This document shows, in pieces, positions 23,241-40,352 of a stretch of DNA of 40,354 bases. The notes under the pieces are model-generated. The model had not been told where the DNA came from. It saw only the letters and a list, made by a program, of their open reading frames with translations, and made no database searches. The stretch comes from an uncultured Bacilli bacterium (GTDB lineage: Bacteria; Bacillota_I; Bacilli_A; RF39; UBA660), in assembly GCA_947627895.1 (NCBI GenBank), contig CANQXV010000003.1:1-40354 (forward strand), read 5' to 3'. How positions within the stretch are numbered: position 1 is the first letter of the stretch; each line of letters starts with the position of its first letter. The position numbers and the translations under genes were made by a program.

Positions 23241-25109
23241 TTAAGCTATTCGATATGGATTTGTTTCAGTTCCATCTCCTGAGGCAATTTTTGCGTCAGA
23301 TGAAAGATAGAAGGAAGGTCTAACACAATATAAATTATAAACATCATTGCCTATACCATTTGTCATACCTGCATAATCGATAAATCTTGCCCCGGCTCCA
23401 TATTCTGGCCAACGAGAAAGTGTCCATTCGTTAATACCCAGGTATAACCAATTATTATTTTTGACCACATCTTCATTATAATTACTTGCCTTAATATTCC
23501 AATATTCTGGTAAAGTTCCGTACATATAATCGCTTATATACATTAAACCAATATTTGAGTTAAACAATAAATCATTATCGCTGTTACATAATCTCGGTTC
23601 TTGATTTAAGGCCAATCCGTTTCCTTGCGTATAACATAAATTACTTTCTTTTGTTAATTTACTATCACCTAATTCACTCTCATATACTTCTTTAGCATTA
23701 TTAAAACTTGATGTCCCTCCGACTTCCCATATGTGACTAACAATTTTTTTTTGATAAATTTCATCTATATTATTATAGAAATACTCATTTAAGTTTTTAC
23801 TATTTAGGTCGCTTTCCTTCCACATATTTACATTAGTACTGTTCTCATATAATATGTGTTCTTTGTCCGTACTATTCCAACTATAACTTGCCAAACTATC
23901 CCAATTTGTGCCCTTATAATACATATGATTAGTACTATTATTTAAACTATATAAACTATAAGTTGCTCCACCTCCTACTTCACTATTACCTAATTGAGCT
24001 GCTGTTGCACCTTCCGCTTTAATCAATTTCATTTCATATTGTTGATTCGCATTTTTAAATAACCCTATTATTCTATATAAATCTTCATTTGTTGTACATT
24101 GTTGTGGTTCCTCTGATACTTCTGTAACATCATCTAAACATACATAGTTATTTACTATTTCACTGGCCCCACTATACCTATAGGAATTATCATTAGCTCC
24201 GTTTGTTAAGTTTTCATTATGTAATAATAATGTATTGGCTTCTGAATCTGCTAATAATTTTTCTTGTATTTCTTCTTGTTTAGTTTCTTTTTGGATTATT
24301 ACTTCCCCACTTACTTGTTTTCCGGTATTTAATTCTTGATCAGTTGGTAGGTTTATAAATGTTATGGTTATTTCCCATGTATCTGTTGTTGGCCCTGGTT
24401 GAGTATTTGGATCAGATGGTGCTGTTACTTCTATTGGTACTCCACTTGCTATGGTTATTAATCCTCCTACTTCAGTTATATCATACCCACTTATTTTCTT
24501 TGTTTGTTGTTCTTCTCCTTCTGTATATTTTATTTCTATATCATCTTTATGAGTTAATCCAACTACTCCTTCATACTCCTCAGTACCCTTTTTAACACTT
24601 AATATTAATTCTGACACTGGAGTATTATATGTTCCTTTATCTGCATCACTCAATGGTACTTGTTTAACATCTCCAGTGTCATTTTTATAACTTGAATACT
24701 CTAATTCTTTAGTATTTAATCTTAAATACACATTATAAGTTTCTCTTGCTGCTCTGGTAGCACTATTAGCTGTTAGTACTGCTTTGGCTGTTACCCCATC
24801 AGCTATACTTTGATCATTTGCTTCAAAGTTTTCCACTGTTGCTTTTATATTTATTGGTGTTAAATCATCAGTTCCTTGTTTGGGATCATTATCAATAATA
24901 TGATTTCCTTCATCAGTTGCATCCTTATCTACAATGCTAAAAGTTAAGGAATCATTAGTTCCCGTTTTAGCACTAACATCAAGGGTTTGATTATCACCAG
25001 TTTGGGCAGCAAAAAAAGCATATGTTGCTCCGGCTACTACTATTAATAATGTTAATACCCCTATTATTAATAACATTAAGTTTTTTCTTTTTTTGTCATT
25101 ATCTTTCAT
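23241..25109 (-). CDS. TasA/camelysin-like secreted protein with a C-terminal shared domain
   Basis: Extracellular protein of 622 aa. Residues 1-10 are basic, 11-34 hydrophobic and end in GATYAFFAA followed by a polar DNQTLDV block, the pattern of SipW-processed TasA/camelysin precursors. Residues about 40-275 contain a beta-rich domain with the TW-x-ITITF-x-NLP stretch also seen in that group. Residues 309-622 are a separate module with RYSG, NYVC, LYRIIG, GLMYISDYMY, EWTLS, VRPSFYL and NPYRI motifs, shared with the 1243-aa protein at 36563-40294; the VRP and closing motifs recall DUF6273-like domains. No sipW gene is nearby. It is regulated, by inference, from the palindrome over its -10 and the divergent HTH gene. 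Confidence 0.75.
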   Translation of the reverse strand: MKDNDKKRKNLMLLIIGVLTLLIVVAGATYAFFAAQTGDNQTLDVSAKTGTNDSLTFSIVDKDATDEGNHIIDNDPKQGTDDLTPINIKATVENFEANDQSIADGVTAKAVLTANSATRAARETYNVYLRLNTKELEYSSYKNDTGDVKQVPLSDADKGTYNTPVSELILSVKKGTEEYEGVVGLTHKDDIEIKYTEGEEQQTKKISGYDITEVGGLITIASGVPIEVTAPSDPNTQPGPTTDTWEITITFINLPTDQELNTGKQVSGEVIIQKETKQEEIQEKLLADSEANTLLLHNENLTNGANDNSYRYSGASEIVNNYVCLDDVTEVSEEPQQCTTNEDLYRIIGLFKNANQQYEMKLIKAEGATAAQLGNSEVGGGATYSLYSLNNSTNHMYYKGTNWDSLASYSWNSTDKEHILYENSTNVNMWKESDLNSKNLNEYFYNNIDEIYQKKIVSHIWEVGGTSSFNNAKEVYESELGDSKLTKESNLCYTQGNGLALNQEPRLCNSDNDLLFNSNIGLMYISDYMYGTLPEYWNIKASNYNEDVVKNNNWLYLGINEWTLSRWPEYGAGARFIDYAGMTNGIGNDVYNLYCVRPSFYLSSDAKIASGDGTETNPYRIA

Positions 25110-35080: not shown

Positions 35081-35103
35081 GTTAATGACTTTTTATCATT
35101 AAC
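35081..35103 (-). terminator. Terminator after the pilin-like protein operon
   Basis: On the minus strand GTTAATGA pairs with TCATTAAC around a 7-nt loop, followed by seven T. It overlaps the stop codon of the last small membrane protein gene and separates this operon from parA. Confidence 0.85.
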
Positions 35104-35587
35104 TATTTCTACTACATACATAACCAAGTTCTTCTAAAGATTTTCGAAACTCACTAAAATTAAGTGTTACTTCTTCGCCTTCAGCATTCTTGGTATAATC
35201 AATTTCATCACCAACAGTGTATTCGATACTTAAAGCATCATCATTATAAAAGACCTTCCCCGGATATTCGTCTTCTTTACCTAATTTGTATTCTTCTAAA
35301 GTTGCATAAGTTAATACTATTGATGATTGACTACTTATTACTTTTTCGCCATCAATTTTTAAATTTTCAATGTGAGTTTCTCGATAGTTAGCATCAATTT
35401 CGTTATCTACCGTACATTTAATATTATAGCCTTCTAAAGATTCCGTTTGATGATTCTCTGGTTCTGGACTAGTTTCCGTTTTTTTTACTTCAGGTTTATT
35501 ATTTAACACAATTATAATAGCAATTACCAAAATAACAACTAAAGCAACAATACTTCCCATAATAATTAATTTTTTCTTATTAGTCAT
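35099..35587 (-). CDS. One-TM two-Cys extracellular protein (paralogue 2)
   Basis: Not a family I recognise. It has 162 aa: a short basic start, one membrane segment (about 8-31), a Thr/Glu/Pro linker to about 50, then an outer domain bounded by one cysteine at each end (YNIKC near the start, LGYVC at the end), suggesting a single disulfide. It aligns along its whole outer domain with the gene just upstream (35603-36124): same two cysteines, an NLKI/VEGD/E-like strand, YT/EDYTK segments and a shared closing E-x-x-GY-x-C. The ATG at 35587 follows GAAGGG; the TTG at 35602 is less likely. It is last in the operon. Confidence 0.75.
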   Translation of the reverse strand: MTNKKKLIIMGSIVALVVILVIAIIIVLNNKPEVKKTETSPEPENHQTESLEGYNIKCTVDNEIDANYRETHIENLKIDGEKVISSQSSIVLTYATLEEYKLGKEDEYPGKVFYNDDALSIEYTVGDEIDYTKNAEGEEVTLNFSEFRKSLEELGYVCSRNS

Positions 35588-35602
35588 AATTTTTCCCTTC
35601 AA

Positions 35603-36124
35603 TTATTGTTCATTAGCAGTTGTACACGTATAACCATTGTTTTCTAATATTGCCTTATAATTACTATAGCTTTGTACTACTTCATTACCATCAGCATCTT
35701 TTGTAAAATCAGCATTTTCTTCGGTATCAATATATTCAATAATTTTTTCAGCATCATTAAATTCTACTCTATTACCATAATTATCGTTTTTAGCTTCATT
35801 ATATAATTCTTCATCTGTATATTCGACTCTAACAGACGATAATGAATTTAATAATCTATCCCCTTCTACTTTTAAATTATTGGTATATATTTCCCGATAA
35901 CCTTCGTTTTCAGTAATAATTTCACATTTAGCAGTGTATGATTTTAAAATTTCCAAACCTTCTTGTTGTTCAGTTTGTTGCCCTTCTTGTGTTTCATTTT
36001 CCTTAGGAACTTCTTGTTTATTCACTTTAGCCACAATTAATAAAACGACAATTACAATAGCAAGCAATAATACTGTTAAACCTATGGATATGATTTGATT
36101 ATTTTTTCTCTTTTCCTCTTTCAT
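35603..36124 (-). CDS. One-TM two-Cys extracellular protein (paralogue 1)
   Basis: Tandem paralogue of the following gene, 173 aa. It has one membrane segment (about 13-35), a Gln/Glu-rich linker (about 40-60), and an outer domain running from YTAKC to NGYTC. The spacing to the next gene is about 15 bp, so they are co-transcribed and arose by local duplication. The ATG at 36124 has GAGGG upstream. No catalytic residues were recognised. Position behind the pilin-like protein suggests an envelope role or a minor partner, which is inference. Confidence 0.75.
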   Translation of the reverse strand: MKEEKRKNNQIISIGLTVLLLAIVIVVLLIVAKVNKQEVPKENETQEGQQTEQQEGLEILKSYTAKCEIITENEGYREIYTNNLKVEGDRLLNSLSSVRVEYTDEELYNEAKNDNYGNRVEFNDAEKIIEYIDTEENADFTKDADGNEVVQSYSNYKAILENNGYTCTTANEQ

Positions 36125-36125
36125 T

Positions 36126-36551
36126 TTATAACCCTCTTTCAAAATAATATATTATTTTTGAATTATTATCTATTGTTTGTTCTAATTGAATACTACCATT
36201 TTCATCAAATGTTACTACGCCGTTTATATCTAAATAATCGCCTTTCGATACAACATATATCGAATCATCCCTATAATACTCGCTCATAGAGCAAACACTA
36301 TTATCTTCATAAAAAGTGCATATACTAACATGATTTTCCATAAAATTAAGGAATAATTGTACATTACTTTCTTCTTCTGACATTGTTTCATTTTTATATT
36401 GCACAACTTTATTTAAATTCCATTTTGTTCCTACTAAATCATAAGTCTCCTTTTTCAAAGTTCCTTTTTTAATATATATTAATATCCAAATCGATATTAA
36501 TATTATTAACAAACCAGCAATTACACAGAGCTCTTTAATATATTTTTTCAT
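36126..36551 (-). CDS. Small one-TM extracellular protein of unknown function
   Basis: Protein of about 141 aa with one membrane segment (about 7-28) and an outer domain containing two cysteines close together (SICTF and SVCSM), different from the two following paralogues. The stretch YDLVGTKWNLNKVV, with later beta-strand patterns, loosely recalls lipocalin-like or META-type small domains; I cannot assign one. I chose the ATG at 36551, eight bases after AAAGGA and 11 bp past the stop of the large gene; a start at 36608 would overlap that gene by about 45 bp. It ends next to the paralogue start. Confidence 0.65.
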   Translation of the reverse strand: MKKYIKELCVIAGLLIILISIWILIYIKKGTLKKETYDLVGTKWNLNKVVQYKNETMSEEESNVQLFLNFMENHVSICTFYEDNSVCSMSEYYRDDSIYVVSKGDYLDINGVVTFDENGSIQLEQTIDNNSKIIYYFERGL

Positions 36552-36562
36552 AATCTTTTCCT

Positions 36563-39500
36563 TTACCAGCAAGACCCTGATCCACTTGCATATCCTTGAT
36601 ATTGACATGCAGAATTACAATCGTTTGCACAGAAACTTTTTTGATGAGCCTTATAAGTGGTGTCCTCATAACAGTAGCAACTACATGTACGATATGGACT
36701 ACATGAATTACTGCTTCCTCCACCCGAAGAGGAACAAGTTGTTTGACAACCATCATTGCCATAACAATATCCTCCTATCGAAGTGTTTTTTTGCATACCA
36801 TCAGATTCGGAAATATAATAATAACAATATCCTTTATTAGCACCAGCCTCGGTACTTTTAGGTAAATATTGTCGTCCAGTTTGAAGACAACCATTGCTTG
36901 TACTTAAGAACCACCAACGATATTCGGATGACCAAGTACTACTATCAATTCTTAACCAACGCCAGCCCCCTAACCAAGAACCACTTTCAAAGTATTTCCA
37001 ACAAGAGCCTTCCCATTGCCATCCTTCTTTTACAACAGGTTTCTTTTCGGTTCGAGCTGAACTATATGCATAATCAGAATTGCCTTGAGTATCATATACA
37101 TCTACTTCAATAGAATAAGAGGTATCCTCGCTTAAGCCCGTCATATCACATGATACGGTACCACTACCACTTTTTGTACATTTTAGGGAATAATTAGCGT
37201 AGAATTGGACACTTGATATCGAATATGTTCCTTTAGTAACATAGGCATCAACATGAATAGAATTTGGTCCCGTAGCATATGCACTTGATATCCGTACCTG
37301 TGGTTCGTCTACATCAAGGGTATAGGCAGAACTATAATCAGAGTCCCAATTTCCTTGGGTATCATAGATATAGACTGTTATACTATGATAACTATTCATA
37401 GATAACCCAGAAATGGTACATGAAGAAGAACTAGAATCATATCTTGTACATTCCTTATAGCCATCCACATAATATTCATATCTATCTATTGAATATGTCC
37501 CTTTGGTTCCCCGAGCACTAACATATATTGAATCTGCTGATGTACCATAAGCATTAGTTATTTCAACCTGTGGGTCCACTACTGATAATGTTCGAGCTGA
37601 ACTACTAGCGGTTGAGTAGTTCCCTTTTGTATCATAAATATAAACTGTAATAGAATAATACGTATCAATGCTTAAACCAGTTACATCACAAGATGCAGAA
37701 GTACCAGATGTACTTTTCGTACATTTTTTATTTCCAACATAAAATTCGTATCTATCTATTGAATATGTTCCTTTAGTTCCTGTAGCACTAACATATATCG
37801 AATTTGTTCCCGTTCCATAAGCATTAGTAATTCTTACAGTTGGTTTTTTAACATCTGCAGTTTTTATTGTTTTGGAAGCCGACGTAGACTTATTATAACT
37901 ATTGGTTGCCTCAACACTTATTGTATAATTAGTACTCATTGTTAAATTAGTAAATGTATATGAACTACAATTACCAGTTACCCAAGCATTGGTTCCTATT
38001 TTATACCTACATGAGGATAAAGTACCACTTCTAGCAGTCGCATTTGGATAAACAGTTATACTATCAGTTTCAGAACTTGAAGTTATATTTAATGTTGGTG
38101 TTAAAATCTGATTTGTTTTTTGAGTTAGTGACCTTTCACCAGTATGACCATTAACGTCAGTTACTACTACTTTTAAAGTGTAAGAAGTATTTTCATTTAA
38201 ACTTTGATATACATAGGTATTACTTGCGGCCATATTATTGGTATAAACGTATTTTCCATTTAAATAGTAATCATATTTTTTGATAGTTCCTGATCCTGCT
38301 GTTCCAATGGCCCTTAAAGATATACTATAGTAATCAACTACTGAAACTGCTAAATCTACCTTTGGATCTTCATAATCTGTTTTAGCTTTTACACTTGCTT
38401 CGGCTGTCAATCCCTTTTGGTCTGTTACTCTTACCGTAAAGGTATATTCCGTATTACTTGTTAATCCTGTAAAGGTATGCGTATCAACTATTGCACTACT
38501 ATTTACTGTTACCCATGAACCATTTCCTACTTTATATTCATACTTCGCTATTGTCCCGCTTCCTATTGTTGTCGTTGCTTTTACTACTACTTGATTTATT
38601 GTTTGACTTACATGTTCTAATACTACCTTTGGTCCTTCATATAATGTATGGCATGGCAATTCATATTCTTCCGAATAATTTCCTCGATTATTTAAGGCTT
38701 TGACTCTTATTTTATAATCTTTATCACTTTCTAGACCATCAAACGTATATTTATAGCTTTCACTTTCTTTCCACGTTTTTCCTTCATCTATACTATAGAA
38801 ATATTTACTTATTCTTCCATCTTGGCTTTCCGCGGTTACTTCTACTTCTATGCTATGGAATGATTCGTTTTTCCCTACACTTTTGATTATGACTCCTACA
38901 TCTGCTACCCGATAGGGATTGGATCTTGTTCCTTCTCCTCCTGTTAGGATTATGGTATCTTTTAAATTGATTGTTCCCCTTGCCATACTTACGGTACTAC
39001 TTGGGTTCCATCCCACATTTCCTTCAATATTTATAGCATAGTAGTTACTCGTTCCTACTTCTTTACTTACACTCCATTCTATTAATCCCGCTTGATACAT
39101 CCAGTTCTTTTCTCTGGCTTGGCTATAGGCTGTTCCGATTGTTTCCCAATATGATGGATGTGCACTATACATATATTCATTTACATACATAAGTCCTGTC
39201 TTACTATTCGTGGTTGCTCCTTTTATTTCTGCTGCATACACTTCTTTCGCCGTTTTTCCTATTTCACTTCTTGCAAATCCAGTGGTATACCATGCTGCAT
39301 TTGTTACCATATTTTGCCATTTGGATTCATACCCATTTATCATATCACTTCTCGTTGTTACACCACTGTTGGCTTTATTTATATCTTTTTCTTTTATTAG
39401 TTTGATATTATTTCCATAGACTCCAATTATTCGATACATATTTTCATCTGGACATGTATCTTCATCTGTTCCAAAGCATATATAGTTTTTTACATTTACA

Positions 39501-40294
39501 CCGGCATAACGATATGAATAATCTCCTGCTTCATCTTCTCCATATCCTGAGTCTTCTCCATCTTTATCATGATAGTAGATTCCTCCTTCTTCATTATTTT
39601 CTAGTTTATAATTATCTTTTAAACATTTGGCAAAGTTCTTTCCCTTACATACTTCTCCTAAACTACTTTCTCCTACTTCAATTTCTTTATTAATATCTAG
39701 TTTTAAGGTTACATAAAAGCTTTGACAATTTTCTTCATTTTCATTACATTTTGCTACACCATCTTCGGTAGATTTTTCTTTATATTCTGTAACTAGATAG
39801 TAGTTTACTCTGTCATCTTCGTCTCTTTCCACATTCATGGTTTCGATATATCTACTTAAACCTTCACTTAAGCCTTCATATGAGGCATCACATTTTTTAT
39901 TCGCAGCCGCATTAAAGCATTCCGTGATTATTTCATCCGATACCACCAACATTTTATTTACGTTAAATTTTTTGGTTATATTTTCAAGCTCCGCGGGATA
40001 ATCTTCACTTGCTTGATATTCAGTAAATAGTTCACTATATACATCTTTATTTATTTCTAATGTATATTTTTCATTAAATCCCGTATCTTTTAAATCATTT
40101 ATTTCCGTTTTATTTATTAAAAAATCGGCAAGATAATAGTTTCGATACAAATATCCTATATCATCATAATATACTTTGGTTTTTTCTTCCGTGATCGCAT
40201 TTCTATAACTTCCATACAATACTAGTAATGCCGCGGCCAAGAATACTATGGTTATTATTGTTTCGATAAATACAAATCCATTTTTCTTTTTCAC
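36563..40294 (-). CDS. Giant prepilin-like protein with shared domain, seven FN3-like units and Cys-rich tail
   Basis: Surface protein of 1243 aa. The N-terminus MKKKNG-FVFIE then a 20-residue hydrophobic helix fits a type IV prepilin leader (Gly at -1, Phe at +1, Glu at +5). Residues about 30-255 are an unrecognised helical, acidic region. Residues 261-464 carry the RYAG, NYIC, MYRIIG, GLMYVNEYMY, EWSVS and NPYRV motifs shared with the protein at 23241. Seven fibronectin-III-like units of about 85 residues follow (467-1082), the last three very similar. Residues 1089-1243 are Trp/Gly-rich then Cys-rich (14 Cys). The start is GTG with AAAGGTG nine bases upstream. First gene of a four-gene operon. 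No pilus-assembly genes are in the window, and a plain membrane-anchor reading remains possible. Confidence 0.75.
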   Translation of the reverse strand: MKKKNGFVFIETIITIVFLAAALLVLYGSYRNAITEEKTKVYYDDIGYLYRNYYLADFLINKTEINDLKDTGFNEKYTLEINKDVYSELFTEYQASEDYPAELENITKKFNVNKMLVVSDEIITECFNAAANKKCDASYEGLSEGLSRYIETMNVERDEDDRVNYYLVTEYKEKSTEDGVAKCNENEENCQSFYVTLKLDINKEIEVGESSLGEVCKGKNFAKCLKDNYKLENNEEGGIYYHDKDGEDSGYGEDEAGDYSYRYAGVNVKNYICFGTDEDTCPDENMYRIIGVYGNNIKLIKEKDINKANSGVTTRSDMINGYESKWQNMVTNAAWYTTGFARSEIGKTAKEVYAAEIKGATTNSKTGLMYVNEYMYSAHPSYWETIGTAYSQAREKNWMYQAGLIEWSVSKEVGTSNYYAINIEGNVGWNPSSTVSMARGTINLKDTIILTGGEGTRSNPYRVADVGVIIKSVGKNESFHSIEVEVTAESQDGRISKYFYSIDEGKTWKESESYKYTFDGLESDKDYKIRVKALNNRGNYSEEYELPCHTLYEGPKVVLEHVSQTINQVVVKATTTIGSGTIAKYEYKVGNGSWVTVNSSAIVDTHTFTGLTSNTEYTFTVRVTDQKGLTAEASVKAKTDYEDPKVDLAVSVVDYYSISLRAIGTAGSGTIKKYDYYLNGKYVYTNNMAASNTYVYQSLNENTSYTLKVVVTDVNGHTGERSLTQKTNQILTPTLNITSSSETDSITVYPNATARSGTLSSCRYKIGTNAWVTGNCSSYTFTNLTMSTNYTISVEATNSYNKSTSASKTIKTADVKKPTVRITNAYGTGTNSIYVSATGTKGTYSIDRYEFYVGNKKCTKSTSGTSASCDVTGLSIDTYYSITVYIYDTKGNYSTASSSARTLSVVDPQVEITNAYGTSADSIYVSARGTKGTYSIDRYEYYVDGYKECTRYDSSSSSCTISGLSMNSYHSITVYIYDTQGNWDSDYSSAYTLDVDEPQVRISSAYATGPNSIHVDAYVTKGTYSISSVQFYANYSLKCTKSGSGTVSCDMTGLSEDTSYSIEVDVYDTQGNSDYAYSSARTEKKPVVKEGWQWEGSCWKYFESGSWLGGWRWLRIDSSTWSSEYRWWFLSTSNGCLQTGRQYLPKSTEAGANKGYCYYYISESDGMQKNTSIGGYCYGNDGCQTTCSSSGGGSSNSCSPYRTCSCYCYEDTTYKAHQKSFCANDCNSACQYQGYASGSGSCW
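37049..37843 (-). repeat. Three close FN3-unit repeats within the giant protein gene
   Basis: Units encoded at about 37586-37843, 37319-37576 and 37049-37306 are alike at protein and DNA level. All contain a GTGT/GTSA-like NSIYVSA strand, KGTYSIDRYE-type strand (diverged in the third), a Cys pair and a SITVYIYDT-G-N strand. The first two share long DNA stretches, so they look like recent tandem duplications. Each has its own pair of cysteines, which is uncommon in FN3 domains. Confidence 0.75.
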
Positions 40295-40324: not shown

Positions 40325-40352
40325 ATTATACCAAACTTTTTCTCTTTTACAA
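40325..40352 (-). promoter_or_regulatory. Promoter of the giant prepilin-like gene
   Basis: Minus strand TTGTAA (40347-40352), 16-bp spacer, TATAAT (40325-40330) with TGG before it (extended -10). It lies 30 bp before the GTG start, so the operon starts in this window. Confidence 0.7.

Follow-up and report, generated by a model that had tools for sequence, protein, structure and literature searches.

The window, by which we mean the whole stretch of DNA analysed (40,354 nucleotides), is an entire contig (C3) of a 1.18-Mb draft genome (G000; 93 contigs, 93% complete) from an uncultured Bacilli bacterium. Near its right end, an open reading frame on the minus strand (36563-40294, GTG start) encodes a protein of 1243 residues, referred to below as the giant. 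The ribosome-binding-like sequence GGGAAAGGTG lies just 5′ of the GTG, and a promoter-like element falls within the 60 bp of readable sequence upstream, in a scan that stood at chance level overall (25 sites versus 31.5 in shuffles). On the same strand 3′ of the giant come three ORFs for small proteins with one transmembrane segment (one-TM) and after them parA and parB, as the first-pass annotation had described. The first of the three most likely starts at the ATG at 36551, just beyond the giant's stop. The features of the locus are:

40325..40352, minus strand: promoter-like element TTGTAA-16-TATAAT (promoter scan)
40277..40294, minus strand: prepilin leader MKKKNG, residues 1-6, cleavage expected after G6 (motif, conservation)
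40163..40276, minus strand: hydrophobic alpha-1 helix, residues 7-44, with F7 (+1) and E11 (+5) (AlphaFold2 480-aa model; invariant columns)
39680..40294, minus strand: pilin module A, residues 1-205, elsewhere a stand-alone gene of about 195 aa (homologue searches, model)
38867..39679, minus strand: predicted DUF6273/C-type-lectin-like domain, residues 206-476 (PF19789 matches in family; model)
37046..38866, minus strand: seven FN3-like units, residues 477-1083; self-profile span 473-1088 (self-profile and Pfam)
36566..37045, minus strand: cysteine-rich tail, residues 1084-1243, 14 Cys (residue count)
36126..36551, minus strand: small one-TM protein, family ii, about 141 aa if started at the ATG at 36551; the listed ORF begins at 36608
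35603..36142, minus strand: small one-TM protein, family i, 179 aa (ORF list, family comparison)
35099..35602, minus strand: small one-TM protein, family i, 167 aa (ORF list, family comparison)

None of the window's three one-TM proteins has a Pfam or NCBIfam match above cut-off. Two families of such proteins, with two conserved cysteines, accompany giants in several species (loci: window 35099-36608, minus strand; L015, L016, L163, L165, L171, L173 and L174). The promoter region of the giant and its first five codons are repeated elsewhere in the genome (L154; contig C6, 20659-20733), with 95% agreement over about 75 bp. This repeat precedes a small one-TM gene and has a TrpRS-like gene and a 296-aa gene upstream; in genome G023, a giant occupies the place corresponding to L154 of C6.

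The N-terminus of the giant reads MKKKNG up to the expected cleavage point and FVFIETIITIVFLAAALLVLYGSY beyond it. The junction MKKKNG/FVFIE has the attributes of a class III signal peptide: a short charged leader, a glycine at its end, a hydrophobic residue at +1, glutamate at +5 and a helix. The prepilin leader and hydrophobic helix that the first-pass annotation had seen at the head of the 1243-residue ORF are thus present, with G6/F7 and E11 in place, and the conservation of these three residues, which it had proposed to examine, shows no variation. They are invariant in 13 homologues from the genus, in 57 aligned homologues and in all 78 homologues of module A collected (the window protein and 77 from named genomes). 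The homologue scan used two peptide patterns, one of which was the leader itself; the other was a leader-independent YDD motif, and among the carriers recruited by this motif G-1, F+1 and E+5 are present in 41/41. In contrast, the neighbouring pilin B (see below) keeps the hydrophobic segment, with Glu5 absent in 44/44. The reading as a plain membrane anchor is rejected on the conservation of the leader across the 78 homologues. Neither Pfam N_methyl (PF07963) nor NCBIfam TIGR02532 matches the window protein at E<=1, the models being short and the counter-evidence weak; a relative, L062, matches PF07963 at E 0.005, below cut-off. The leader is therefore assigned from the motif and its conservation rather than from matches to curated models.

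What had been taken for one 200-residue domain of unknown function following the leader resolves into two modules, the pilin module A (residues 1-205) and a second one at 206-476. Residues 1-202 occur as a stand-alone gene of about 195 aa in most species of the genus (59 related genomes searched), usually followed by B and then C. B combines a prepilin-like GF leader and a helix, often with a DUF6273 domain, and has no Glu5; C is a GxTLIE-type pilin. At 44 of the 74 A loci with downstream sequence a B-type leader comes directly next, its +5 residue always being S, T or A. Frequent surroundings of the A operon are a gene that we take to be CotS-like before it and, on the other strand after it, one that we take to be YlbJ-like. 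In the window's genome, B and C lie together on contig C54 without A, and the sole clear A module found is that of the giant.

A model of the 205-aa module (mean pLDDT 89.1) opens with a long helix, after which come further helices and strands; helices are placed at 6-39 and 46-62 in this model and at 7-44 and 46-62 in the 480-aa model. A Foldseek search of module A against the PDB gave no match (best E 0.24, probability 0.07), a profile search for PDB sequence relatives gave none of significance, and the NCBIfam equivalog models did not recognise A, B or C as H, I, J or K. As no PDB fold matches, the pilin identity of A is based on leader, operon and machinery. The missing PDB pilin match for the globular part and the silence of the N_methyl models on the window protein would suit a plain uncleaved signal-anchor protein whose N-terminus merely resembles a prepilin leader. 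We hold this to be extremely improbable: G-1, F+1 and E+5 are conserved in 78/78, and the module is homologous to stand-alone pilin genes within a pilin operon.

The machinery that the first-pass annotation had named as a check is all encoded in the genome: PilD, a platform protein of the PilC type and an ATPase of the PilB type. The search returned a single A24 prepilin peptidase (PilD; contig C59, 43.7 bits), whose N-terminal region contains two CxxC pairs; its gene is directly downstream of a PilC/GspF-type gene. The PilB/GspE-type ATPase is on C17 (408 bits). PilT was not found in this 93%-complete draft, the two T2SSE matches being PilB and a Tad ATPase; the second of them (C2), considered as a PilT candidate, belongs to a Tad-like locus. 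This locus (L006; C2:7000-16000) comprises genes named by eye as TadA, TadB/C and CpaB-like, as well as a 576-aa protein in which a membrane helix, an FN3 unit and an apparent VanY-type peptidase domain were recognised by eye. Seven N_methyl matches, one of them doubtful, mark other pilins in the genome; the match on C15 fits no plausible pilin ORF there and is probably spurious.

Pfam found no match in residues 206-476 of the window protein taken alone. Among 32 aligned family members, 15 match PF19789 (DUF6273; best 1.3e-8), and L062 exceeds the curated cut-off of this model. A model of residues 1-480 made from 78 sequences (mean pLDDT 90.4) has a sole Foldseek match in the PDB at E <= 0.001, 9qa6 (E 7e-6, probability 1.0). 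This entry is an IgA peptidase of Thomasclavelia ramosa, the N-terminal domain of which is DUF6273 (PMC12402451). Weaker matches were to the C-terminal domain of Legionella Lcl and to C-type lectins; a profile search for PDB sequence relatives of the domain returned none of significance. From the family matches and the model, residues 206-476 are predicted to form a DUF6273, C-type-lectin-like domain. The genome holds 28 matches to the DUF6273 profile, in roughly 25 genes. A second DUF6273 protein in the window (23241-25109, minus strand, 622 aa) begins with an unrelated signal-anchor part that looks camelysin/TasA-like by eye.

The seven FN3-like units counted in the first-pass annotation were recovered with a profile built from the protein itself, and Pfam fn3 matches the giant in five stretches (E 4.7e-18, 65.6 bits). 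Its count of the tail cysteines was likewise exact (14 in 1084-1243), and Cys-rich ends recur among other giants. These domains bear on the idea that the giant is part of a DNA-uptake (Com-like) system or of a secretion pseudopilus, in which the binding partner of DUF6273 and the FN3 units would be DNA or a secreted substrate. The PilB-type ATPase also gives scores with the ComGA and GspE models, no PilT was found, and some small pilins resemble the N-termini of ComGC, ComGD and GspH, all of which would agree with such a role. However, no equivalog model reaches cut-off, and DUF6273 is a C-type-lectin-like domain described in phage receptor-binding proteins (PMC10743442), with its best solved-structure match in a gut IgA peptidase. 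We consider a role of this kind very improbable.

In the tree built from 77 A modules, the giants group as a single clade (100/99) within the genus, and this giant clade has a single origin. Counted on starred branches, the tree calls for no fewer than four changes of the fused state, so grafts onto A were either gained or lost more than once. L094 and L102, two long-branch fused rows, meet on the tree and their placement is unsure. L094 is an A pilin with an ALK/LTK glycine-rich domain in place of DUF6273, and by virtue of this different graft A behaves as a carrier. L062 is an intermediate of 460 aa, made of A and DUF6273, with B and C still following. In the window's lineage, A has moved to a new place and has acquired DUF6273, FN3 units and a Cys tail by fusion. 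The DUF6273 domains of the giants likewise make up a single clade (100/99). The row closest to it is the B of this genome, a weakly supported placement (87/42) that makes B a possible donor. Across species, identity is 63-69% in A, 52-53% in DUF6273 and 28-41% in the stalk.

The genome also contains a textbook diversity-generating retroelement (DGR) on contig C71 (L228). Its parts are:

1-393: end of the target ORF
225-309: VR
758-842: TR
1353-1727: accessory ORF
1711-2793: RT

Comparison of the 85-bp TR with the VR shows differences at 16 of 23 adenines and at none of the 62 other positions, and the VR lies at the end of a DUF6273 gene. The giant's DUF6273 was considered as a target of this DGR and rejected: even when up to 20 of the 62 non-A positions were allowed to differ, the C71 template repeat had no match in the window, and the target is the other DUF6273 gene, on C71. 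Another RT of this kind, apparently broken (L229; C22:16681-17350), has its matches split over two frames, one with an in-frame TAG.

Related genomes appear to hold two or three giants, with identical 5′ blocks in common, and within the giant clade the 5′ ends of the A genes frequently fall where a contig stops. In G006 and in G024, a pair of contigs that differ in their upstream genes converges on one shared 77-base stretch of the A gene; in G006, two contigs with different downstream genes have 77 bases of the FN3 part in common. Shared stretches of exactly 77 bases are consistent with a branching point in the assembly, and a mixture of strains may add to them. G006 appears to hold about three giants; G020 has two copies that are 98.5% identical over 1365 bp, plus a third. 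The matching contig ends C101 and C79 of G023 (77 bp), considered as two genes, are more likely adjacent pieces of one gene. A speculative and, in our estimate, unlikely extension is that the giants make up a variable repertoire of tip adhesins, with near-identical 5′ and pilin-module blocks and differing stalk and tip, in which recombination would alter what the pilus binds; the retroelement would also diversify other DUF6273 proteins in such genomes. If true, this would constitute a pilus-tip variation system on one carrier pilin.

The reading that we favour, with a probability of roughly 0.65, is that the giant belongs to the modular pilins, as a minor type IV pilin that stands at or near the tip of the pilus and serves there as an adhesin. 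PilD would remove the leader MKKKNG after Gly6, and Glu5 and the alpha-1 helix would bring module 1-205 into a minor-pilin complex that starts the type IV filament. Its partners there would be B, as a Glu5-lacking cap, and C, both with their genes on a different contig of this genome. The graft would be exposed outside the wall: the DUF6273 lectin-like domain beside the pilin, then the seven-FN3 stalk (about 25 nm by general FN3 dimensions) and a cysteine-rich knob. Against the minor-pilin reading, the globular part of A has no PDB match, which leaves a classical pilin fold putative; A is split from B and C in this genome, so that their joint expression is only presumed; no PilT was found and the N_methyl models do not match the window protein; and a subunit as large as 1243 aa would have to be polymerised.

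The main rival holds that the processed prepilin stays outside the filament, in the membrane, as a wall-spanning adhesin whose FN3 stalk passes through the peptidoglycan. Its length and stalk would be enough to cross a Gram-positive wall, the giant gene has left the A-B-C operon, and it travels with one-TM surface proteins. Yet Glu5, which serves assembly and not anchoring, is invariant in the giants too, and no other A pilin was found in the genome to fill the conserved role. We regard retention in the membrane as possible though doubtful, and retain the minor-pilin reading.

The earlier proposal of a pilus-tip or surface adhesin has stood up to both tests set for it, conservation and machinery, while its "unusual design" must be tempered, as the class of modular pilins, with domains grafted on, was already in the literature (PMC8179133). 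A survey of more than 1,200 such proteins lists FN3 (IPR003961) among the 15 commonest grafts and names one of 860 aa as the most extreme (PMC8179133). The giant joins a pilin module to domains not specific to pili (A with DUF6273 and FN3) and thus belongs to this class. Like PilB and PilC of Streptococcus sanguinis, it starts with a pilin module that bears a class III signal peptide and continues with adhesive or non-pilus domains (PMC8179133). Unlike the surveyed proteins, it reaches 1243 aa (versus 860 aa), combines DUF6273, FN3 and a Cys tail, builds on a pilin family without a matched structure, and has relatives with several giants per genome. Tentaclins are phage proteins with DUF6273 (C-type lectin) and Ig/FN3 domains that serve as DGR targets (PMC10743442). 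As in these, the giant's lectin-like DUF6273 precedes the FN3 units, but it sits on a bacterial pilin, with more units, a Cys tail and no DGR template match. Tip complexes capped by a Glu5-lacking subunit have been described (PMC10191384), which is why B is read as the tip cap. The A/B/C set resembles PilHIJK/GspHIJK and S. sanguinis PilA-PilB-PilC in having one Glu5-less member and in carrying extra domains (PMC10191384); unlike in PilHIJK/GspHIJK, B carries DUF6273, and the correspondence of A/B/C is one that we infer, the equivalog models not matching. Like the PilY1/PilC tip adhesins, the giant is large, multi-domain and presumably located at the pilus tip; PilY1, however, is a non-pilin with a beta-propeller, and Pfam finds no C-terminal beta-propeller of the PilY1/PilC type in the giant. 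DUF6273 figures in the literature examined in phage proteins or IgA peptidase, not in pilins. The design principle is thus known; what appears to be new is the size, the lectin-like domain and the way in which grafts have repeatedly been placed on one pilin family.

These findings tie an orphan domain, DUF6273, to type IV pili. They also let stepwise grafting be followed within one genus, from A alone to A with DUF6273 and on to A with DUF6273, FN3 units and a Cys tail. For these uncultured, small-genome gut Bacilli, the giant provides a plausible attachment organelle.
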